The position numbers and the translations under genes are program-made. Of a stretch of DNA of 64,000 nt, positions 4,031 to 62,879 are shown piece by piece; position 1 is the stretch's first letter; each line of letters starts with the position of its first letter. This DNA is from Corallium rubrum (lineage: Eukaryota > Cnidaria > Anthozoa > Scleralcyonacea > Coralliidae): the NCBI GenBank assembly GCA_964035015.1, contig OZ036002.1:7219143-7283142 (forward strand). The letters are read 5' to 3'. The notes beneath the pieces are model-generated. The model saw nothing but the letters and a program-made list of their open reading frames with translations, made no database searches and was not told where the DNA came from.

Positions 4031-7000
4031 TCGTAATTCAAATAATGATAATTCCTTGAGACCGAGCACCATTTCGGTTCGTTTTCTAATATCTTTGGCA
4101 GTGGATCGTTGTACTGCGGAGACTTCGCTTTGATTGTTATCACCGACGGTGGCGAGATTTCGATAAACACTTCCCTATAAAAGAAACCAAAAAAGACAAT
4201 ACTCCATTACACTCGTCAGTTTTCAGACCACGGTATCAATTGACTATCTTTACTCCTTTCGCGCCTGTCTCGTTTCTTTTGGAAGGATGCAGACTTTAAT
4301 AAAAAAAATTAAACTAATCTTAGTTATACTGAATAGCTCTATCAGTTATATCTAACTGTTCTCCCTAGAGGTCGAGTAAGGGACATGCCTTATTGGTCCA
4401 GTATTATTACTACAGGAGGAAACTGGAGTACCCGGGGAAACCTGTGGTGTTTGGTAGAGTCAGAGGCCCCGTTCACACTATACTGGATAGGTTTTCGTGC
4501 CGGCACAAAAAATATCCAGTATAGTGTAAACAGATTCGATCGGCACGATATTGTGCCGAAGTATAGCCCCGTTCACACTATACCGGATAGCTTTTGTGCC
4601 GGCACGAAAACCTGACGATACAACCAATCCCCACGCTCTATTCTATTAATTTACTTCCGGAACGATTTCGAACTCCGTTCACACTGGAGCTGGAACAGCA
4701 CAAAAAGCTATCCGATACAAGATGTACCTCTTTCGAGATCGGAGCGGCGCAGCGGCGTGCCGGCACAGAAATTGTGCCGGAGCAGGTGTTTCGTGTGTGA
4801 ACAGAAGGCGGTATTAGAAGCACTCTTCTCACATGCCGCCAACGTGAACTTTTAATCAGATAACTGAACTGAGGCGGTATAAAACCTGCGTCGCAGAGGT
4901 GAAGGGCACCCTGTGCCAACGAGTATTTTATCATATGTCGCCGATGGTAGCCGATCGTCGCCGACCCATGATTTAGATGCATGTTAAGTAAAAGAATAAA
5001 AGCACTGCTTTCTGCATTGTTCTTTATTACTTAACATGTTGCTGCACTTCCCGTTTTAACATGCATCTAAATCACAAATCGCCGACAATCGGCGACATAT
5101 GAGAACCAGACTTAAAGGGACAGTTCTCGGGCGCCAAGGGGTTAAGCAATGCGTACCTTTCTTTTTGAGGACAGGACAATAAGATTCCAACATCGTGTTC
5201 GTTGCTTTCAAATAAATCTCGCGTAGTTTCCAAAAAGGTATTGTGTTTGACATTCCAACCAAGACGTAAAGCAAGCTTTTTAGCAATTCCCAGCATAAAA
5301 AGTTGAACCTGCATATAGAAAAAAACACACAAATCAATAAAAACAAAATCTTCATTAACATCATCGCGTCTATCACTGGGTTAAAATTAAGCCTGGTTTC
5401 CATATAAGATCGTCTCGATCCATCCAATCAGATTGGGTGATTCTAGATATCTCTCGTCTGATTGGAGAAATCAGAAATTTGGGCAATCAGGGGGGGGGGG
5501 CGCGATCTTATGGAAATCTGGCTTAGGGAGTTGTTGTAGGAGATGTGGGAATTGTACAGGTGTAGCGAGCATTTTTCTTTAAAATAGTTTACCTGATTTC
5601 TTAACATTAACTTTAGTTCTTGGGTGTCGGCAGAAAACGTCACACCAATCCCATCATGCTGTGTGACGTGTACTGTGTCGGTGCCTACTTTGACAGCAAA
5701 GCATCTTCTAAATATGAAAGAGCAAAGCATCTTCTAAACATGGGGAGCACGGGTGGCGTGTGCTGTTAGCGCGCTGCCTCTCACCAAAACGTTAAGCCCG
5801 GTTAGACGGGGTTAGTACTTGGATGGGTGACCGCTTGGGAATGACCCGTTGTCGGGCTTGGACTCATGTGAGTAGAGTTGTAGTTGATCTCTCCTGTGCT
5901 TCGAGGGTTTTTCGCCGGGTTCTCCGGTTTTCCTCCCTCCATAAAATCAACACCTAACATCTTAGCTGTGTTCCGTGGTCTGAACTGTGTCGTTGGCGGC
6001 AGCTTCGAGCGCCTTTGATATGCCTCGACACGGCCATGTTGATCTGCGTCCTTCGCAATTCAGCCGCTGGCTGCAAGTAAGGATGATTAGCCACCCAGTC
6101 CTTTACCCTTTATATTCACATTTGCTAAAACAAACTCTGTAACATTTGTCCCCTTCCACCCAATGTTATAAGGTTGTTTTCCACCAACTAAGCGACGATA
6201 TTTTTCAAGCGAAGCCACCTTTTGCTTTTGTCTTGGCTGATTAGTTCCACCTGAGCTAAGGCTCTTTTCCAGTCATCGCAAAAACCAGCTCGCAACTCGC
6301 TCCGAGTGTTTACATCTAATTAAAACCAACTCGCAGTGCTTGTTTTCTCGCTGTGAGTTCTTTTTAATGAGATACAAGTACTAGCAGCAAGATGCGAACT
6401 AGTTTCTGCAATGAGTGGAAAAGAGCCTTTAGGCTAGATTTCCACTTGGCAAAAAATGTCGCGCAAAGCGAGATTTCCTTTTGTCTCGCGAACTCTCAAC
6501 ACAGAAGTGGAACTAATCAGCCAACACAAAAGTAAAACGTCGCTTCGCCCGAAAAATATCGCTCAGTGGAAAATAGCCTTACTATCCTCATTAAAAACAT
6601 TCCAATCGGTCGTCACCATTCGGATAAAGATCGTATAAAGCACGAAGTTGGAAGTTAATATACCTTTCTGTTCTGCCTCTCAGTGCAATGTATATGGTCG
6701 CAAAGGACGAAGTCTCTGTAGATAAAGTACTCCAATGACATGACAGTAATGGATCGTGAATGTCATCAGCCAGTTCGTGAATCACGCGAGAAACTCTGTT
6801 GAAGAAAATTGTTTTAAAGTTCTGTTAGTTCTTGCTGTACAAGCCGTTGTTAATCAGGGAGGGAAGGAGGGAGGAAGGGAAGAAGAGAGAAAGGGGAGGA
6901 GAGAGGAAGGGAAGGAGGGAGGAAGGGAAGGGGGGAGGAAGGGAAGGGGGGAGGAAGGGAAGGGGGGAGGAAGGGAAGGAGAAAGGAAGGGAAGGAGAGA

Positions 7001-14922: not shown

Positions 14923-15850
14923 AGAGCTTTAAAAAGCTTCACTCGCTGAACAAACAGTCAGGCAACACATTGTTACCATAATATATGTTGAAACAGTTCT
15001 GGTTTACCGTCAAATTCTGCGTTCACTGTGCCAGACTCATATAAAGAATAGGTAAGCACTAGTGTTTTTTTCCACAATACAATGTTGTAAACAAGCAGTA
15101 CAGTAACGAACGTGATATTGTTTCGTTTGGGCAGCCAGCAGGCAGGCGCCTCTAAATTATCCGAGGTTTTTCTACGATCTTTACACATTTTCTCACTGAT
15201 TTTGAAGAAATACTTGAAAATATAGTTCACTAACCTCTCCACTAACAGAAACAAGACTCCAAACTCTAAAAATAATGAAATAAAGAAGAAAAATAACTTC
15301 GGAAAGTACACGATTATGTGTGCGTCGTGCTTAAATTTGGAAGCTCGGTTTTTTTGAAACGCCTCGAAGGACTATTTCTTGCTAAATAAACACAAGTTTT
15401 TTTACATTTACCTTTGCCTAGATGATTGTTCTTTATCACAATGAGTTTATTTTGTGAGAAAAGATACTTTTACTATCAATAATTTCGCATTTTGTACGGG
15501 TGTGTTTTTCAATTTTTTTCAAGAGGATCATTTTTTGTTCCCCGAACTCCCAAGGGGGATTTCTAAAAACTGTAATACCATTGGTTCTGGCGGGGGTGAA
15601 AACTAACCAATAGAAAGTGGATAAAATGGACCAATCACAGCTAACTTCCGGAAAGTTTTAGCCAATGAAAGCCGAGGATTTGCCTGGCGGCAGAATAAGT
15701 TTGATCCAAAATATTTTTAGGGCATTCATTCACTGGGGCATTCGAAGAGGAAGGTTGTGTATTGGCAGTGACCAAACGCCACTCAAGTACTGACTCGAAT
15801 TAAAGAATTCGATCAGGAAGTGTTCCTGGTAGTAAGTGTAGGTATGTTTA
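14923..15850. other. Intergenic, no gene recognised
   Basis: I see no conserved coding segment. The 112-codon minus-strand ORF at 14973-15311 has no recognisable domain. Confidence 0.4.
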
Positions 15851-17445
15851 ATCATTGTTTCATGATTTTTTCCCAAAAATGTCTCCAATTTCTACCATAG
15901 GTTGCCTCTGAGTCTCGTCGGCCGACACAAGTCAACAACGCGAGCGGCTTTGGCTTCGGTCAACCTTTTAGCTTCGGTGTTTGGACTTCGTTTTGCTTTC
16001 TTTTCGAACAAGCTGTCAGAAAAAAGACTCAAGAACTACAGCCGAACGTTTGCCAACGAAATTTTCTTAAAATTTCTGTTAAATTTTCTCTTGAAAGTCT
16101 CGTTCGTCACCTCGACGTTTCACAGTTTACAGAGTCGGCCAAGAGGATGTCCCGCCGGCCCTCCAGGCCTAGTTTTGTGGTTGAAATTTCGTTTTCTTTT
16201 CAATTTTAAGTCGGGTTAAAGTTTAGGCGACTACTGCTGAAGAATTTTTGTTGAATTTTCGAAAAATTTCGGGCGACAAATGTCTTAGAAGTCCGAAGGT
16301 CTCGAGTGTCGGCTCGCGTACGCCCGTTGTGCTCAGCTAGGATGAGATAATTCAAAGTACCATTTCAATTTTTGAATAAACCGTCGAACTAAAGCCTCGG
16401 AAAGTACTGGTGAACGCTTTGCGGCAAATTTTCGTTGAATTTCGATAAAAATTCGGCTGATAAATTTCTTCGAAGGCTTCAGATATTTTCGCGTCGAGCT
16501 TCGGTCAGTTGCCGAATACATTATAGTGCTTGAATCTTCGTTTCTTTTTGGATAAAATGTTTATATAAAGTTTCGGAAAGTACTGTGGAATGTTTTACGG
16601 CATTTTTTTGTTGAATTTCGGTAAAAATATTGCGGAGAAATCTATTCGGAAATGTTTCACGTGAACAACACGGCCGGGGTGCGAACTCGAAGACAAAACA
16701 TAAGAAGTCGATTCATATATATGCACAGAATTTGGAGTTTCTTTTACAGTACAAAGCAATTTTCGTACAACAAGACTTGTTCGGTAAAAGTTATAACAGT
16801 GGAAGTTTGTTTTTTTTGTATTTATTTTCAAAAATGTTTGCGGAGAAGTCGATACAAATTTTGGAACGAGCCGACATGTACGGCATCTGGATTCATGCCA
16901 CTTGAATCAAAATATTTAAAACAAGAAAGGACATTGCAATGCTTTCGAAATGCTTACGGTGTCGTGTTACGAAGATAAGAGCCCGGAGCTCTCAAGAAGA
17001 AAACCAAATAAGGGAAGAATTATTAAACCAACCTTTAATATGCGGACAAAACGAACCTGAAATCCACTTTCCAAGGACTTGAAATAAACGTTCTCCTATT
17101 GTTCGGAATTATAATGAAAAAAAAATTGACAAACCTGTCAGAAACTGACAACACCGATAGCGCTTTTCAAGGCACTTACAGGATTTAACTGTGTAAAAAC
17201 ATACGGATATATCTCAGCACCTTTGAACAAATTGGACTTTTTTCGGACTTTGTAGAGTTTAAACATGACTTCTAAAATACTGCGAGATTTCTTAAATTCT
17301 ATAGATCTGACTAAAGTATTCTCAAAGCGAATGCGTAATTAGTACTCACTATTATATATAGTATTGATAATCACTAACATTATTACTTTTTTCTTTCAAT
17401 TTCAGGTGGATTGGCGTTCATTTGCGGTAGCGGAATTTCGGTGTT
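15851..17445. other. Non-coding stretch with internal duplication upstream of the repeat locus
   Basis: Richer in CG dinucleotides than its surroundings. A segment resembling CGGAAAGTACTG, then TTGTTGAATTTCG, then AAAAATTCGG recurs near 16230, 16395 and 16565, so it was built by local duplication. ORFs are short and switch frames. This could be the 5' part of a transcript running into the repeats at 17.45-24.06 kb, but that is inference. Confidence 0.35.
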
Positions 17446-17478
17446 CTCTGTAAAATGCAGTTTTTAACTTCACGCTTC

Positions 17479-18429
17479 CACCAGCTTTCCTCTGGTGCTT
17501 AGCGCTTAGCAGTCTAAAATAGAACAGTTACCATCAATTTTATGCTTCCACTGGCTTTTTTTCTGGTGCTTAGCAGTCTAAAAAAAATGCAAAAAAAACC
17601 CCAACAACCCCAAAACATGGACTACTGTGGATATATGTGGATCTTCATGGACTTTATGGATACCTTTGTGGACGTCCATGGATAAATGGGGATCTTCATG
17701 GACATGGGTATCTTATATGGATAATGTGGACTTCAATGGATATTCATGGATATGGAGCAAGCAAAAAATGGATTTGGGTTATGAGGTTAGAATCCTGGTG
17801 GTCTTTAAGTAATTATATAATAAATTAAAACTAAAGTATTTCAAGCTAGATTAGAACTAGGCAGGACAAGCAAAGGTTTTACCAAATTATGCTGATTTGA
17901 GAAAATCCATTAGAATCTGGTAAAGTCTTACTTGAATTTATTAGCTAGATGGGTACAAATTGTATCCTGATCCCAATTCCTGTTGGACAGTTGGTGGAAT
18001 TAATCTGGTGGAATACATCAATGGTGGATGCATGGTCTTCTATGTAGTAATTTTAATGCATGATTTGTTTTTGTAATAGTAATTGTAGAATAATTGTAAT
18101 ATAAAACAACTTTGTTAAATGCTTCCACCACTGTTGTGGTGCTTAGCAGTTTGAAATGCAAAAGTTAACCATTAACTTCATGCTTCCACCACTGTTGTTG
18201 GTGCTTAGCAGTCTGAAGTACAGCAGTAACCAGTAACTTCATGCTTCTACCAGCTTTTGTCTGGTACTTAGCAGTCTGAAAGTACAACCAGTAACCAGTA
18301 ACTTCATGCTTCCACCACTGTTGTTGGTGCTTAGCAGTCTGAAAGTACAACCAGTAACCAGTATAATTTCATGCCTTCTGATACCAGTACCAGTACCAGT
18401 ACCAGTACCATGTACCAACTGTTTGGTAC
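17479..18429 (+). ncRNA. Candidate structured RNA: hairpin units 1-7 with covarying stems
   Basis: Seven hairpins are set in the frame TGCTTC-stem-CTTAGCAGTC, at 17479-17497, 17549-17568, 18126-18141, 18187-18203, 18248-18266, 18313-18329 and 18412-18429; the last five repeat every 61-67 bp. Stems read CACCAG/CTGGTG, CACCAC/GTGGTG, TACCAG/CTGGTA and TACCAA/TTGGTA with 4-8-nt loops. Paired positions change together while the flanks stay constant, which suggests selection on pairing. No RNA family is recognised, and the strand is assumed because pairing alone does not fix it. Confidence 0.45.
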
Positions 18430-19866
18430 TTAGCAGTCTAAAATAAAGTTATTGTATAAAGTAAATTTGTATATTTGTATTATATATTTGTACTGTAATG
18501 GTAAATCAGATAAAAATAAAAATAATGCATGTAATATACCTGTATTATACTTTACTATAATGGTGAATCTAATAAAAATTAAAAAAAAATAAACTAGAGG
18601 TTTTTAGGTTAACCAAAGACAACAACATCAACTCTATATTTGGAGCAGGTGTGTGTATAATATCTTTTTCCAGGAAGCATAGTGTAGAATGTTTATACTT
18701 TACAGCAACAAAAATAATTAAATACTCCAAGTTACAGAAGGAAGTGGGATTCATTTCCTAGTGATGAAAGAAAGTAATCAGTAATTAATTAACGTTTTAA
18801 AATATGCATATATGACGACTACCAGGATTACGGTCTAGATTAAGTTCATGAAGAATCACAAACAATAACTCCTCGGTATTTTTTTTAGTAAGCAATGGTT
18901 GTGAGATATTGTGAAGATTCTTCATGGGTTTAGTCTGATCATTAAACGTAAATATAATTTAATTACTGCATGGTAGGGGTTCCTATTGCCCTTTGGAGTA
19001 CAAATTGTACCCAAAACAAATAGTATCTTGTATCCAAGACTTGTTTTACTACAAAGTAAAATATGTTAAGGGTGACAAGTTTGCGAATTAAGCAATGCGC
19101 ACAATTCGGTTCTTAGTTTAATAATAATGCTTCGGTTACCAATTAATTAAATGCCGCTTGCAATTCGGGTACAATTCGGCACCTTCGGTTAAAAATCTGA
19201 TTTGGAAAGCACAACAGTTGTAATAATGTAAATCTGTTTTAAAAATAAACAAACAAATAATGTCGTGTGTTCTTTGTTTTAGTGTAAATCTGTGTATAAC
19301 TTATCACTTTGCAGGTTTTTGCAGGAAACTATATAACATTAGTTGTTTTTTTAGCAATTCGGCACCTTCGGTTAAAAATCTGATTCGGAAAGCACAACAA
19401 TTGTAATAATGTAAATTTGCTTCTAAAAATAAACAAACATATGATGTAGTGTGTGTTCTTTCTATACGTATAACTTATTACTTTGCAGGTTTTTGTAGGA
19501 AACTAACATTATAGTTCTGTTTTTTTAGCAACTCGGCACCTTCGGTTAAAAATCTGATTCGGAAAACACAACAATTGTAATAATGTAAATTTGCTTCTAA
19601 AAATAAACAAATATATAATGTAGTGTGTGTTCTTTCTTTTAGTGTAAGAATCTGTATTTCTTAGCTGACAAGTTTTCTTTTTTCTTTTCCAGATAGATGC
19701 GCAAAGAATTTTTTAAGTATTCTAATTTTTTTTCGAACTTTGCAGCTTTTCGTAGGAAACTAACATTTAGTTGTGTTTTCTTTTCAGCTTGCGAGGGTTG
19801 AGGCAGTGTGTATGCAATGTGGACAGAGCGCTTAAAATAAAGCAGTTATCATCAATTTCATGCTTC

Positions 19867-20659
19867 CACCAGCTTTTTTCTGGTGCTTCGCAACCTATTT
19901 CATGCTTCCATCAGCTTTTTTCTGGTGCTTAGCAACCTAAAACTAGGAAAAAACAAACAAACATGGTGGATTACTATGGAGATATGTGGCTTTTTATGGA
20001 TACCTTTGTGGACTTGCATGGATATATGTGGATCTTCATGGACTTCTATGGATATATGGGCGTACCTTTGAACTTTTATGGATATGTGGGGATCTTCATG
20101 GACGTTTATGGATATATGGGTGTCTTGTTTGGATAACGTAGACTTCAATGGATATTCATGGATATGGAGCAAGCAAAAATGGATTTGGTTTAGGAGGTTA
20201 GACCTAATAAATTAAAACTAAAGTATTTCAAACTAGATTAGAATTAGGCAAGACAAGCAAAGGTTTTACCAGACTATGCTGATGTGAGAAAATCCATTTA
20301 TAGAATCTGGTAAAGTCTTACTTGAATTTATTAGCTAGATGGGTACAAATTGTATCCTGATCCCAATTCCTGGTGGACAGTTGGTGGACATAATCTAGTG
20401 GAATACATCAATGGTGGATGCATGGTCTTCTTCGTAGTAATTGCATGCTATTTTTGTAATAGTAATTGCAGAATAATTGTAATTTAAAATAAATTTGTTA
20501 AATGCTTCCACCATGTTGTGGTACTTAGCATTTTGAAATACAAAAGTTAACCAGTAACTTCATGCTTCTACCACTGTTGTTGGTGCTTAGCAGTCTGAAG
20601 TACAACCAGTAACCAGTATAATTTCATGCTTCTACCAGTACCACTGTACTTGTCTGGTA
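19867..20659 (+). ncRNA. Candidate structured RNA: hairpin units 8-12, duplicated block
   Basis: Five more copies lie in the duplicated block at 19867-19885, 19909-19927, 20510-20522, 20569-20585 and 20633-20659. Stems include CACCAG/CTGGTG, CATCAG/CTGGTG (a G-T pair) and TACCAG/CTGGTA. The last unit has an enlarged loop but keeps its stem. All but the first two are followed by CTTAGCA. Same caveats on strand and transcription as for units 1-7. Confidence 0.45.
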
Positions 20660-21845
20660 CTTAGCAGTCCAAAATAAGGTTAAGGTAACCACATACTGTA
20701 TATATAGTTGTTATATAGAATTAAATAAAAATAGAAATAATGCATGTAATATACCTGTATTATACTTTACTATAATGGTGAAACTAATAAAAAAATTTTA
20801 AAAATAAAGTAGAGTTTTTAGGTACCAAAGACAACGACATCATCCCTATATATATTTGGTCCAGGTGTGTGTATAATATTTTTGCCAGGAAGCATAGTGT
20901 AGAATGTTTATAGTGACAGAAATAATTAAATACTCCAAGTTACAGAAGGAAGTGAGATTCATTTCCTAGTGATGTCACTGGAGGTAATAATTAATTAACG
21001 TTTTAAAATATCTTAAATATCTATGTATGACCACCAGGATTATGGTTTAAATTAAGTTCATGAAAAATCACAAACAATAACTCCTCGGTATTTTTTTAGT
21101 AAGCAATGGCTGTGAGATATTGTGAAGATTCTTCATGGGTTTAGTCTATTATTAAACGTAAATATAATTTAATTAATGGTAGGGGTTCCTATTGCCCTTT
21201 GGAGTACAAATTGTACCCAAAACAAATAGTATCTTGTATCCAAGACTTGTTTTACTACAAAGTAAAATATGTTAAGGGTGACAAGTTTGCGAATAGATCT
21301 TTCCGCTTGGCTAATGTCCAAAGGTGTCCGAAGTTTTTCGAGAGCCAATCAAATCTCTCAACACGTTATCCCCCCCCCCCCCCCCTTGTGCGGAAAGCAT
21401 TGTGCATAATTATAGTTTAATATATAATGCTTCGGTTTGAAAATAATTAAATGCCGGTTACAACTTGGGTACAATTCGGCAGCTTCGGTTAAAAATCTGA
21501 TTCGGAAAGCACAACAATTGTAATAATGTAAATTTGCTTTAAAAAAATAAATAAACAAAAAATGTAGCGCATGTTCTTTATTTTAGTGTTAGAATATGCG
21601 TATAACTTATTACTTTGCAGGTTTTTGTAGGAAACTAACATTAGTTGGGGTTTTTTAGCAATTCGGCACCTTCGGTTAAAAATCTGATTCGGAAAACACA
21701 ACAATTGTAATAATGTAACTTTGCTTCTAAAAATAAACAAACAATGTGGTGTGTGTTCTTTCTTTTCAGTAGTGTAAGAATCTGTGTATTTCTTATTACT
21801 TTGCAGCTTTTTGTAGGAAACTAACTTTAACATAGTTGTGTTTTC

Positions 21846-24060
21846 TCAGTTTCAGTTTGCGGAAGTTCAAGTCGACGCAGTGTGTATGCAGAGGGCAATG
21901 CAGTAGGTAATGTGTAGCAATTGTTCTTATGCTGATAAGCTTTCTTTTTTCTTTTGCAGATAGATGTGCATGTGCAAAGAGTTTTCAAAGTATTCTAATA
22001 TTTTTTGAAACTTTGCAGGTTTTTTTTAGGAAACTAACATTAGTTGTGTTTATTTTTAGCCTTGTGTTGTTGTTCTTATGCTAACAAAAGTTTTGTTTTC
22101 TTTCCTTTCGGAGATAGATATATAGATAGTATTCTAATATTTTTTCAAACTTTGCAGGGTTTTTTAGGAAACTAACATTAGTTGTGTTTAATTCTTTTTA
22201 ACCTTGTGTTATTGTTCTTATGCTAACAAGTTTTGTTTTCTTTCCTTTCGGAGATAGATGTATAAATAGTTTTCAAAGTATTCTAATACGTTTCAAACTT
22301 TGCAGGGTTTTTTAGGAAACTAACATCAGTTGTGTTTTCTTTTAGCTTGTGCAGGTTGACACAGGCAGTAGATAGAAACTGTTGTTCACTTCTTATGCTA
22401 ACAAGTTTTGTTTTTTCTTTTGGAGATAGATATATTGTTTTCAAAGTATTCTAATATTTTTTCAAACTTTGCAGGGTTTTATTAGGAAACTAACATTAGT
22501 TGTGTTTTCTTTTTGACACAGGCAACAGATAGAAACTGTTGTTGTTGTTGCGCTAATATTAGTTTTGTTTTCCTTTTGGATATAGATGTATAAATAGTTT
22601 TAACTTTTAACAGCATTCTAATATTTTTCGAACTTTGCAGGGTTTTTTAGGAAACTAACATTAGTTGTGTTTTCTTTTTAGCTTGTGCAGGTTGACACAG
22701 GCAACAGATAGAAACTGTTGTTGTTCTTATATATGCTAACAAGTTTTGTTTTTTCTTTTGGAGATAGATATATAAATAGTTTTCAAAGTATTCTAATATT
22801 TTTCGAACTTTGCAGGTTTTTTTTAGGAAACTAACATTAGTTGTGTTTTCTTTTTAGCTTGTGCAGGTTGACACAGGCAACAGATAGAAACTGTTGTTCT
22901 TCTTATATATGCTAACAAGTTTTGTTGTTTTTTTCTTTCGGAGATAGATGTATAAATAGTTTTCAACGTATTCTAATATTTTTTTGAAAGTTTGCAGAGT
23001 TTTAGGAAACTAACATCACTTGTGTCTTTTTTTAGCTTGTGTAGGGTGACACAGGCAACAGATAGGAACTGTTGTTGTTCTTATGCTAACAACTTTTGTT
23101 TTTTTCTTTTGGAGATATATAAATAGTTTCCAAAGTATTATATTTTTTTCAAACTTTGCAGGGTTTTTAGGAAACTATAACATTAGTTGTGTTATCTTTT
23201 TGACACAGGCAACAGATAGAAACTGTTGTTGTGCTAATATTAGTTTTGTTTTCATTTTGGATGTAGGTGTATAAATAGTTTTAACAGCATTCTAATATTT
23301 TTTCAAACTTTACAGGTTTATTTAGGAAACTAACATCGATCAGTTGTGATTTTTTTAGCCTGTGCAGGTTGACACAGGCAACAAATAAAAACTGTTGTTC
23401 TTATGCTAACAAGTTTTGTTTTTCCTTTTGGAAATAGGTGTATTAATAGTTTTAACAGCATTCTAATATTTTTTCAAATCAACTGTACAAGCTAAAAAGC
23501 AGACACAACTGATGTTAGTTTCCTAAAAGACTTTTAGGAAACTAACATCAGTTGTGTCTGCTTTTTAGCTTGTACAGGTGACACAGGCAACAGATATAAA
23601 CTGTTGTTGTTCTTACGCTAATAAGTTGTGTTTTTTCCTTTTGGAGATAGATGTATTAATAGTTTTAACAGCATTCTAGTATTTTTTCAAACTTTGCAGG
23701 TTTTTTTAGGAAACTAACATAAGTTAATTGTTTCTGCTTTTTAGCTTGTACAGTTGACACAGGCAACAGATATAAACTGTTGTTGCTCTTATGCTAAAAA
23801 GTTGTGTTTTCCTTTTGGAGATAGATGTATAAATAGTTTTCAAAGTATTCTAATATATTTTCTCAAACTTTGCAGGGTTTTTTTAGGAAACTAACATTAG
23901 TTGTGTCTTTTTTTAGCTTGTGCAGGTTGACACAGGCAACAGATGTAAACTGTTGTTGTTGTTATGCTAATAAGTTTTGTTTTCCTTTTGGAGATAGATG
24001 TATAAATACTTTTTGAATTATTCCTATTTTTCAAACTTTTCAGGTTTTTGTAGGGGTTTC
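21846..24060. repeat. Tandem array of about 12 units of 140-210 bp
   Basis: Each unit carries CTTTGCAGG, TTTAGGAAACTAACATTAG, a pyrimidine run ending TTTTTAGC, GACACAGGCAACAGATAG, AACTGTTGTT, and GGAGATAGATGTATAAATAG. The GGAAACTAAC word recurs near 22029, 22169, 22314, 22484, 22658, 22833, 23005, 23171, 23324, 23536, 23706 and 23884. Related units occur singly upstream (19.75 and 21.82 kb). The last unit decays into unique sequence at about 24.06 kb. Confidence 0.9.
23483..23577. repeat. 95-bp near-perfect palindrome (47-bp arms, 1-nt spacer)
   Basis: Bases 23483-23529 are the exact reverse complement of 23531-23577, with a single A at 23530 between them. The right arm is in register with the surrounding array; the left arm is an inverted duplicate of the same piece. 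It could extrude as a cruciform or, if transcribed, form one long hairpin. Confidence 0.95.
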
Positions 24061-24127
24061 AGTCTTTCTAGGTCGACACACCGTACATGTCTATGCAAGC
24101 ATGATATTTCACAATAGCATCTGAGGG

Positions 24128-24160
24128 TTTTCCTCCGGGTACTCCGGTTTCCCTCATCAT
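24128..24160 (+). mobile_element. Short SINE-like fragment
   Basis: The words GAGGGTTTTCCTCCGGGT and ACTCCGGTTTCCCTC resemble the body of the 5S-derived SINEs in this window, but there is no 5S part. It is probably an old truncated copy. Confidence 0.4.
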
Positions 24161-24643
24161 AAAGCTATATATAACTCAATCATATAGGATTACACCAAAT
24201 TCATATAACATTTTGCATACGGCAAAGCTATATGTATATTTTTTAACCCTTTTTAGGGCGACAACCACAAACATTGTATATAATATCAATATTTGCATGA
24301 ATTTTCATTTGTATTTCATGAATTTTATCTACATTTGTCCATGTGGTGGTTTTTAAACCCTTTTGAGGGCAGGCCAATAAAAATTAAATCATATTATATT
24401 ATCCACATGGCAATTTGTTAGATTTAATATTATTTTCGGTCCTTTCTGAGCCCTTTTGAGGGCATATCAACTAAAACAAAAATAAGTGTGTCCATGCTTG
24501 GAACTAAATAGTTGTTGGGTTGAATTCCCAGTACACACTGATAAGATCCTTAGATCCATCTGCATGATTCACTAACAAGCTTGTAATTATTACTGAGGTG
24601 TTTTGAAGTCCAACTTGTGTTAATAGTGTGTTTTGCAAATGTA

Positions 24644-25053
24644 AAGGCCTGGCCAAACGCTTTCAACATCGCATTCAACATCATTCAACATTGTTGAACG
24701 ATGTTGAATAATGTTGAAAGCACGAGTGGCCAAATGAATTCAACATCGTTCAACTATTCATGAATGACAATTAATTGAACGCGGGCTACCACAAAAGCTG
24801 GAATCGACAATATCCCGCATGGCGCATGTCTCTGTTCAACAAAGTTGAATGAAATGTGGCCAAATGTGTTCAACACCTTTCAACATTTTGAGAAAAATAC
24901 TGAGAAATGTTGAACGCGTGTTGAAACATCATTCAACACCATTCAACAACGTTCAACATCATTCAACAGGGGTGGCCAAACGCTTTCAACATGTTGAATT
25001 CAACAATGTTGAACGATGTTGAATGAAATGTTGAAAGCGTTTGGCCAAGCCTT
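24644..25053. mobile_element. 410-bp MITE with 26-bp inverted ends
   Basis: The left end (24644-24669, starting AAGGCCTGGCCAAACGCTTT) is inverted at 25028-25053 with one mismatch. The interior is made largely of GTTGAA and TTCAAC words in both orientations, giving many alternative hairpins. There is no ORF. Confidence 0.85.

Positions 25054-50036: not shown

Positions 50037-62879
<12,843 letters not shown>

Follow-up and report, generated by a model that had tools for sequence, protein, structure and literature searches.

A family of hairpin-bearing, apparently non-coding loci with tRNA-like 3' cloverleaves in Corallium rubrum

A dozen short hairpins in the genome of Corallium rubrum are best explained as repeated protein-binding modules of a plus-strand long non-coding RNA (lncRNA), which would span about 15.7-24.5 kb of the stretch analysed and be encoded by one of 17 paralogous genes; we put the probability of this reading at about 0.48. 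It is likely that the loci are real as a conserved, hairpin-bearing and apparently non-coding family. The stretch, hereafter the window, comprises 64,000 nucleotides (C18:7219143-7283142) of a 474-Mb assembly in 312 contigs, and positions are counted from its first letter. An earlier, sequence-only reading of the window had drawn attention to the hairpins, which are real and turned out to form only one domain of a gene-like unit of about 9.5 kb.

Hairpin units in the window and across the family

Read directly, the window contains 12 hairpin units on the plus strand between 17473 and 20666, among them every one of the dozen hairpins claimed by the sequence-only reading at 17479..20659. Their common form is TGCT - TC - CACCAG - loop - CTGGTG - CTT - AGCA, that is, a 4-bp lower stem (TGCT/AGCA), a 2x3 internal loop (TC/CTT) and a 6-bp upper stem. 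A third, outer stem is found in some units (ACTTCA/TGAAGT or ATTTTA/TAAAAT).

17473..17504, plus strand: unit A1, with CGCT/AGCG as lower stem
17543..17575, plus strand: unit A2, with two G.U pairs
18120..18148, plus strand: unit A3, with a C-G inner pair (18126)
18181..18210, plus strand: unit A4, apical pair missing in the ungapped reading
18242..18273, plus strand: unit A5, with a T-A outer pair (18248)
18307..18336, plus strand: unit A6, apical pair missing in the ungapped reading
18373..18435, plus strand: unit A7, with a long loop holding TACCAG repeats and one lower-stem pair broken (TGCC/AGCA)
19861..19892, plus strand: unit B1, with one pair broken (TGCT/CGCA)
19903..19934, plus strand: unit B2
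20503..20530, plus strand: unit B3, with a C.A outer pair
20563..20592, plus strand: unit B4, with a G.U outer pair, apical pair missing in the ungapped reading
20627..20666, plus strand: unit B5, with a T-A outer pair (20633)

The pair types reported earlier were recovered, both for the outer pair (C-G, or T-A at 18248, 18412 and 20633) and for the inner pair (G-C, with C-G at 18126 and A-T at 18412). The flanks, which had been called invariant, also pair with each other (TGCT/AGCA), with breaks in A7 and B1. The AGCG of A1 adjoins a short tandem repeat. Minimum free energy (MFE) folds take a different form in A7, the unit with the T-A outer and A-T inner pair at 18412, and in B4 (49-nt fold). 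A 2.2-kb tandem duplication divides the units into two sets, and each of the five in its second half has a counterpart in the first; the 12 units thus represent fewer independent changes than is apparent, and the T-A outer pair at 18412 and 20633 is probably a single inherited change, given this duplication.

The exact flank pattern occurs six times in the window and never in 100 shuffles. Paired stem cells amount to 114/120 in the 12 units (with A7 in its own register), a total reached by random placement in 0.19% and 0.12% of simulations on two assumed trees (17 and 18 parsimony changes, 20,000 runs each). Single units are only modestly stable, with fold z scores from -0.6 to -3.2, below -2.6 in two of the 12, and a sliding fold scan over the locus gave no general structure excess (mean z -0.42 on the plus and -0.33 on the minus strand, 168 windows).

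Among the matches listed in a genome-wide pattern search, similar hairpins were clustered on contigs C12 and C13. From four full copies and 13 shorter stretches, 137 units (111 distinct) were collected; these 17 stretches represent 15 of the 17 loci, with C22:8.81 Mb and C53 outside the set. Removal of one spurious unit and merging of six rows that were identical after loop removal left an alignment of 104 rows, which excludes A7, whose loop is too long for the picking rule, and in which rows are partly non-independent (L049 and L057 share one locus, L065 and L066 another). The parsimony count of changes per column is lowest for the lower stem (1.4) and rises through the internal loop (2.4) and the upper stem (4.2) to 7.7-13.8 in the adjoining sequence, which makes the stem and internal-loop positions about 2-10 times slower than their surroundings. 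When units were chosen by their flanks alone, at least four of the six upper-stem pairs were present in 109/117 units of the family, compared with only 2/23 among the same flanks in 30 loci outside it.

The earlier claim that the stem bases covary holds for one or two of the stem pairs. In a custom, R-scape-like test, with columns evolving independently on the same tree as the null and 16 tests in all, the outer upper-stem pair reached E 0.017 and ranked top of all column pairs more than four positions apart. The apical pair reached E 0.004, a value that depends on the loop register, and the remaining 14 stem pairs all stayed above E 0.4. Most stem pairs vary too little to inform on covariation. 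Against a tree-based null, paired-cell totals gave P 0.07 for the upper and 0.04 for the lower stem, both borderline, and 0.01 for the outer stem, totals that are inflated in that the picking rule required at least four of six upper-stem pairs. The outer stem is read as optional because at least five of its six pairs are kept in only 47/104 units. Selection on the folded hairpin, as the sequence-only reading had proposed, is supported by the slow stems and internal loop and by the covariation in these 104 units, which sample 15 loci of the family.

The gene-like unit and its paralogues

The hairpins lie within a longer conserved unit, all of whose stranded features read on the plus strand.

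15080..24541, plus strand: whole gene-like unit, conserved in paralogous loci and delimited by identity to three paralogues
15600..15900, plus strand: promoter-like region with three CCAAT boxes (15607, 15631, 15662) and an ETS-like TTCCGG (15646)
within 15600..15900, plus strand: first-exon-like stretch with a 5' splice-site-like AGGTATG at 15840 (transcription start and splicing predicted)
16.0-17.0 kb: CpG-rich stretch downstream of the promoter-like region
18981..19088, plus strand: very conserved structured block (copy B at 21187-21294)
19503..23916, plus strand: array resembling 3' splice sites (CTAAC, polypyrimidine tract, AG), with a period of about 173 nt in its main part
24430..24484, plus strand: upstream part of the 3' module, with two short hairpins with U-rich loops and then an A-rich tract
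24485..24539, plus strand: tRNA-like cloverleaf with a 7-bp closing stem, 3-bp and 4-bp arms, and a 5-6-bp T-like arm with a 7-nt loop

Identity to the three paralogues is mostly 70-99% inside the unit and about 60%, the random level, outside it; copy-specific gaps at random level also occur inside (e.g. 21280-21400 and 24040). With the conserved block (18868-19095) as query, 57 matches in the whole genome resolved into 17 loci on 10 contigs (C12, C13, C18, C22, C25, C32, C39, C46, C49 and C53). The promoter-like region (15600-15900) gave 20 matches, all within these loci: one main match per locus, always on the strand of the block, and three short pieces. In the 16 other loci the main match was 75-92% identical, in some of them over only part of the query. 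Searching with the 3' module (24345-24541) yielded 14 matches; 13 fall in loci of the family, one in each, and the last is a fragment on C23, while the four remaining loci gave none at the search sensitivity used. In the 13 loci, the 3' match follows the promoter match on the same strand at a distance of about 7-15 kb. The loci are paralogous and their parts keep a fixed order and strand, for the promoter-like region and block in 17 loci, for the hairpins in the 15 loci read and for the 3' module in 13. This succession of promoter, hairpins, block, acceptor array and cloverleaf along a single strand, repeated at many loci, has the look of a gene.

The two copies of the block in the window show no mismatch over 108 nt, and the best match of its core in each locus is 92-100% identical; the fold of 18970-19095 has z -3.1 on the plus and -2.6 on the minus strand. 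A fold-back at 23479-23581 has 51-nt arms that are 98% complementary and 1 nt apart. In the unit, acceptor-like sequences, defined by branch-site consensus, polypyrimidine tract and AG, number 15 on the plus and none on the minus strand, compared with a mean of 1.3 and a maximum of 5 in shuffles. The three paralogues have 15, 23 and 18 on the plus strand, again against none on the minus strand. Plus-strand 5' splice sites of strong consensus number only 0-1 per copy in four copies.

In four copies, each read over its last 9,000 nt, no ATG-started ORF exceeds 114 aa, and the longest frames are of 77-114 aa. One frame of 108 aa (at about 16.65 kb) is, among the matches listed, 60% identical to the P3 paralogue over 73 aa with no stop and 52% identical to the P2 paralogue with a stop. 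DNA identity to P3 at this frame is 84%, above the protein identity. The frame does not look like a conserved protein; a short peptide from it is possible. Non-coding is the simplest reading of the family. A non-coding RNA composed of repeated stem-loops, as proposed earlier, agrees with the family on several counts: each locus has one promoter-like region, order and strand are fixed, and four copies have no conserved long ORF.

Several identities were rejected. A protein-coding repeat is at odds with unit spacings that are not multiples of three and with the short ORFs, and a microRNA precursor with arms that are too short and with microRNA near-matches that all fall at the fold-back, near 23322-23576. 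Eight pattern matches in viral contigs offered no viral relative, none being hairpin-like when folded (judged by eye). The sequence-only reading had recognised no known family, and the Rfam covariance models agree, with no match over the gathering score in the window and none to mascRNA. DC-STAMP, a rhodopsin-type GPCR and a SOCS-box kinase figure among the Pfam matches to 10 ORFs of the window; a reverse transcriptase, at 56511-59483, falls outside the unit.

The tRNA-like 3' end

The common form of the cloverleaf is AGUGUGU-CCA-UGCC-UGG-AACU-AAAU-AGUU-(A/G)UUGGG-UUGAAUU-CCCAG-U-ACACACU. An exact pattern covering at least 42 nt of the 3' end has 12 matches in the genome and none in both controls. 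Folded to minimum free energy, 11 of the 14 copies give a four-way cloverleaf and three give another fold, and only 6/12,000 dinucleotide shuffles of four copies share this topology. A cloverleaf model (R1) matches 14/14 copies, 12 of which are its training rows. Cloverleaf cells are paired at 97.6% in 11 distinct rows and at 27-54% when the structure is slid along, and 3/500 shuffles reach 97.6%. The copy on C53 has one compensatory change, yet its own MFE fold differs. In the copies on C23 and C32 one arm is lengthened with pairing kept; one closing-stem pair is broken on C23, C25 and C32, and one pair of the 4-bp arm on C22 and C25. Covariation in the cloverleaf is weak, since as many double changes arise in 35/500 shuffles.

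Conservation also marks this end. Mean pairwise identity in 12 copies rises from 0.64 through 0.75 to 0.84 toward the cloverleaf (0.84 being the last 70 nt before it), is 0.92 in the cloverleaf itself and drops to 0.55 just downstream, where the shuffled level is 0.49. An A-rich tract lies directly upstream of the cloverleaf in 14/14 copies read. The U-rich loops are present further upstream; a bipartite triple helix of two U-rich motifs and the A-rich tract would be conjectural. The T-like loop is UUGAAUU or UUGAACU in 13/14 copies and UGGAAUU in one, although 12 of the 14 copies were found by a pattern that fixes most of this loop. It is not the canonical tRNA T-loop, UUCRANY, and we take the T-loop and the linkers to differ from those of tRNA. 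The Rfam tRNA model has no match at the cloverleaf, and the mascRNA-menRNA model (RF01684) has none genome-wide, nor does 24300-24650 match it at thresholds up to E 10. A MALAT1-like 3' end is, on this sequence evidence, a good lead.

Interpretation and relation to known RNAs

Mobile DNA offers another explanation of the family. The loci could be copies of a large non-coding transposable element or its remains, with the hairpins and cloverleaf as parts of the mobile unit that owe their conservation to recent copying or homogenisation. The 17 dispersed copies on 10 contigs would be expected of such an element, as would flanks that are unrelated between the window and the three compared copies, the internal duplications and arrays, and the solitary 3' fragment on C23; the lack of a conserved long ORF in four copies also fits, as a non-autonomous element needs no transposition protein. 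However, each locus has a single main promoter match, and conservation, instead of decaying evenly, is concentrated in islands at the promoter, the hairpins, the block and the cloverleaf. At the left edge homology tails off gradually, and no terminal repeats or target-site duplications were seen by eye at the left ends of four copies or the right ends of three. We consider this origin rather unlikely. It is very improbable that the unit is simply a long intron or pre-mRNA from a multi-copy gene of low conservation, with hairpins and acceptor-like sites as repetitive intron content: there is no conserved long frame, conservation stops at the cloverleaf, and strong plus-strand donors are as scarce as noted above, although the good 5' splice site after the first-exon-like stretch, the many acceptor-like sites and the similarity of the 108-aa frame to P2 and P3 would all suit an intron.

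The paired changes themselves might have arisen in DNA, with no RNA involved, through hairpin-templated mutation (template switching between quasi-palindrome arms) or as a cruciform site. Palindromes can mutate by templated switching between their arms, and both the fold-back of 51-nt arms in the same locus and the tandem repeat beside the AGCG of A1 are in keeping with this. Templated repair should, however, erase the TC/CTT internal loop, which is kept unpaired and conserved at 2.4 changes per column. Mismatch types bear on both the mechanism and the strand. G.T exceeds C.A in the upper stem (31 to 9 cells), as expected from selection on a plus-strand RNA and contrary to a DNA origin, but C.A is the more frequent in the lower stem (0 to 7) and in the outer stem (32 to 48), and the sum over all stems is 63 to 64, a near equality that would suit a DNA origin. 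The arms also differ in a way that speaks against a DNA origin: at the three inner upper-stem pairs, 16 changes fall on the 5' arm and 3 on the 3' arm (p 0.004, the pairs having been picked post hoc), but the split narrows to 31 and 19 over all six pairs (a simple sum). A purely DNA-based origin appears improbable. The assignment to the plus strand is made mainly because the promoter-like region, the acceptor-like arrays and the cloverleaf all read in that direction; the hairpins themselves show a mixed strand bias, which tells slightly against the lncRNA reading.

If the loci are lncRNA genes, each would be transcribed from the CCAAT/ETS promoter, and the RNA would end at the tRNA-like cloverleaf, which RNase P and RNase Z may excise as in MALAT1/NEAT1, leaving a new 3' end that the A-rich tract could shield. 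The hairpins, and likewise the 3'-splice-site mimics, may recruit an RNA-binding protein in many copies, and the RNA could then act as a nuclear scaffold or as a splicing-factor decoy. A more specific proposal remains tentative and, at present, doubtful: that this is an architectural lncRNA family in a non-vertebrate, with MALAT1-type 3' ends, independently evolved or ancestral, matured by tRNA enzymes, and with hairpin and acceptor arrays that would gather nuclear RNA-binding and splicing proteins.

Repeated short stem-loops in a long non-coding RNA are known from the Xist A-repeat. The stems and flanks of Xist and of the Drosophila roX RNAs presumably differ from those of the family, which, unlike roX and Xist, has many gene copies and for which we know of no link to dosage compensation. 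The roX RNAs, according to one report (PMC4719309), likewise carry repeated short stem-loops. Two reports describe RNase P and RNase Z as cutting the tRNA-like ends of NEAT1 and MALAT1 (PMC12941219; PMC10869381). One of them calls the two RNAs the sole lncRNAs matured by the tRNA-processing machinery (PMC12941219), and the other places MALAT1 in jawed vertebrates and notes that anole lizards and some fish have many MALAT1-like 3' elements (PMC10869381). The family resembles them in its unit of 7-15 kb that leads from a promoter-like region to an A-rich tract and a tRNA-like cloverleaf. It differs in being non-vertebrate, in its 17 copies, in having no Rfam mascRNA match, in holding its U-rich stretches in two small hairpins, and in its large hairpin and splice-site arrays. 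PNCTR is reported to be a short-tandem-repeat RNA around which a nuclear compartment assembles (PMC6224606). Like PNCTR, the family would pack many protein-recognition motifs densely into a single non-coding RNA, its own being putative pyrimidine-rich acceptor mimics, and the repetition of a single hairpin and a single acceptor mimic suggests multivalent protein binding of the kind described for PNCTR; unlike it, the family has modules of about 173 nt (branch site, polypyrimidine tract and AG) together with structured hairpins.

A search by titles and abstract openings, with subscription journals and preprints outside its scope, found no paper on such an invertebrate or cnidarian family. The family hints that nucleus-organising long RNAs may exist far outside vertebrates. 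With a non-vertebrate family of similar anatomy, convergence and deep ancestry of the 3' end would become testable alternatives, and its seventeen natural variants would provide a ready structure-function system for architectural RNA.

A conserved block in two copies within the unit

The gene-like, apparently non-coding unit holds a very conserved block of 108 nt at 18981-19088, whose second internal copy, at 21187-21294, matches it without a single mismatch over the full 108 nt. The best core match in each locus of the paralogous family lies between 92 and 100%, and such a match was found in 17/17 loci. The fold of the first copy, taken over 18970-19095, has a z of -3.1 on the + strand.

Repeats and a short open frame within the unit

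A degenerate repeat of 104 nt, with copies spaced 176 nt apart, occupies 16369-16648 in the CpG-rich 5' part of the unit, and its period resembles those of the array of 3'-splice-site-like sequences and of the 174-nt array at 19172-19637. Within the array of splice-acceptor-like sequences sits an inverted repeat of the fold-back type (23479-23581; arms of 51 nt, 98% complementary, spacer of 1 nt), which looks like the product of a template-switch event. ATGGAT-type minisatellites (17618-17753 and 19967-20135) adjoin the first hairpins in each half of the tandem duplication. Close to the 3' end of the unit, at 24120-24160, a string like CTCCGGGTACTCCGGTTTCCCTC was read by eye as similar to one elsewhere in the window, at ~5905-5940; these strings are perhaps a SINE remnant.

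An open frame of 108 aa (~16652-16978) showed, in translated comparison, partial similarity to two paralogous copies of the unit, being stop-free across 73 aa in P3 and interrupted by a stop in P2. It is perhaps a short peptide or a chance occurrence.

Other elements in the window

A reverse-transcriptase element at 54765-60917, with ORFs of 990 and 231 aa, is bracketed by two 1.4-kb stretches that both match the same sequence, and is accompanied by TAGTG arrays, one of which (55919-56514) comprises ~119 repeats with 100% matches. A short ORF at 61839-62267 matches part of tyrosyl-DNA phosphodiesterase and is likely a single exon of a gene. A second copy of the reverse-transcriptase element, 88-94% identical, adjoins the paralogous copy P1 on another contig of the same assembly, C12 (positions 1202-5777 of L042, the stretch read from it).
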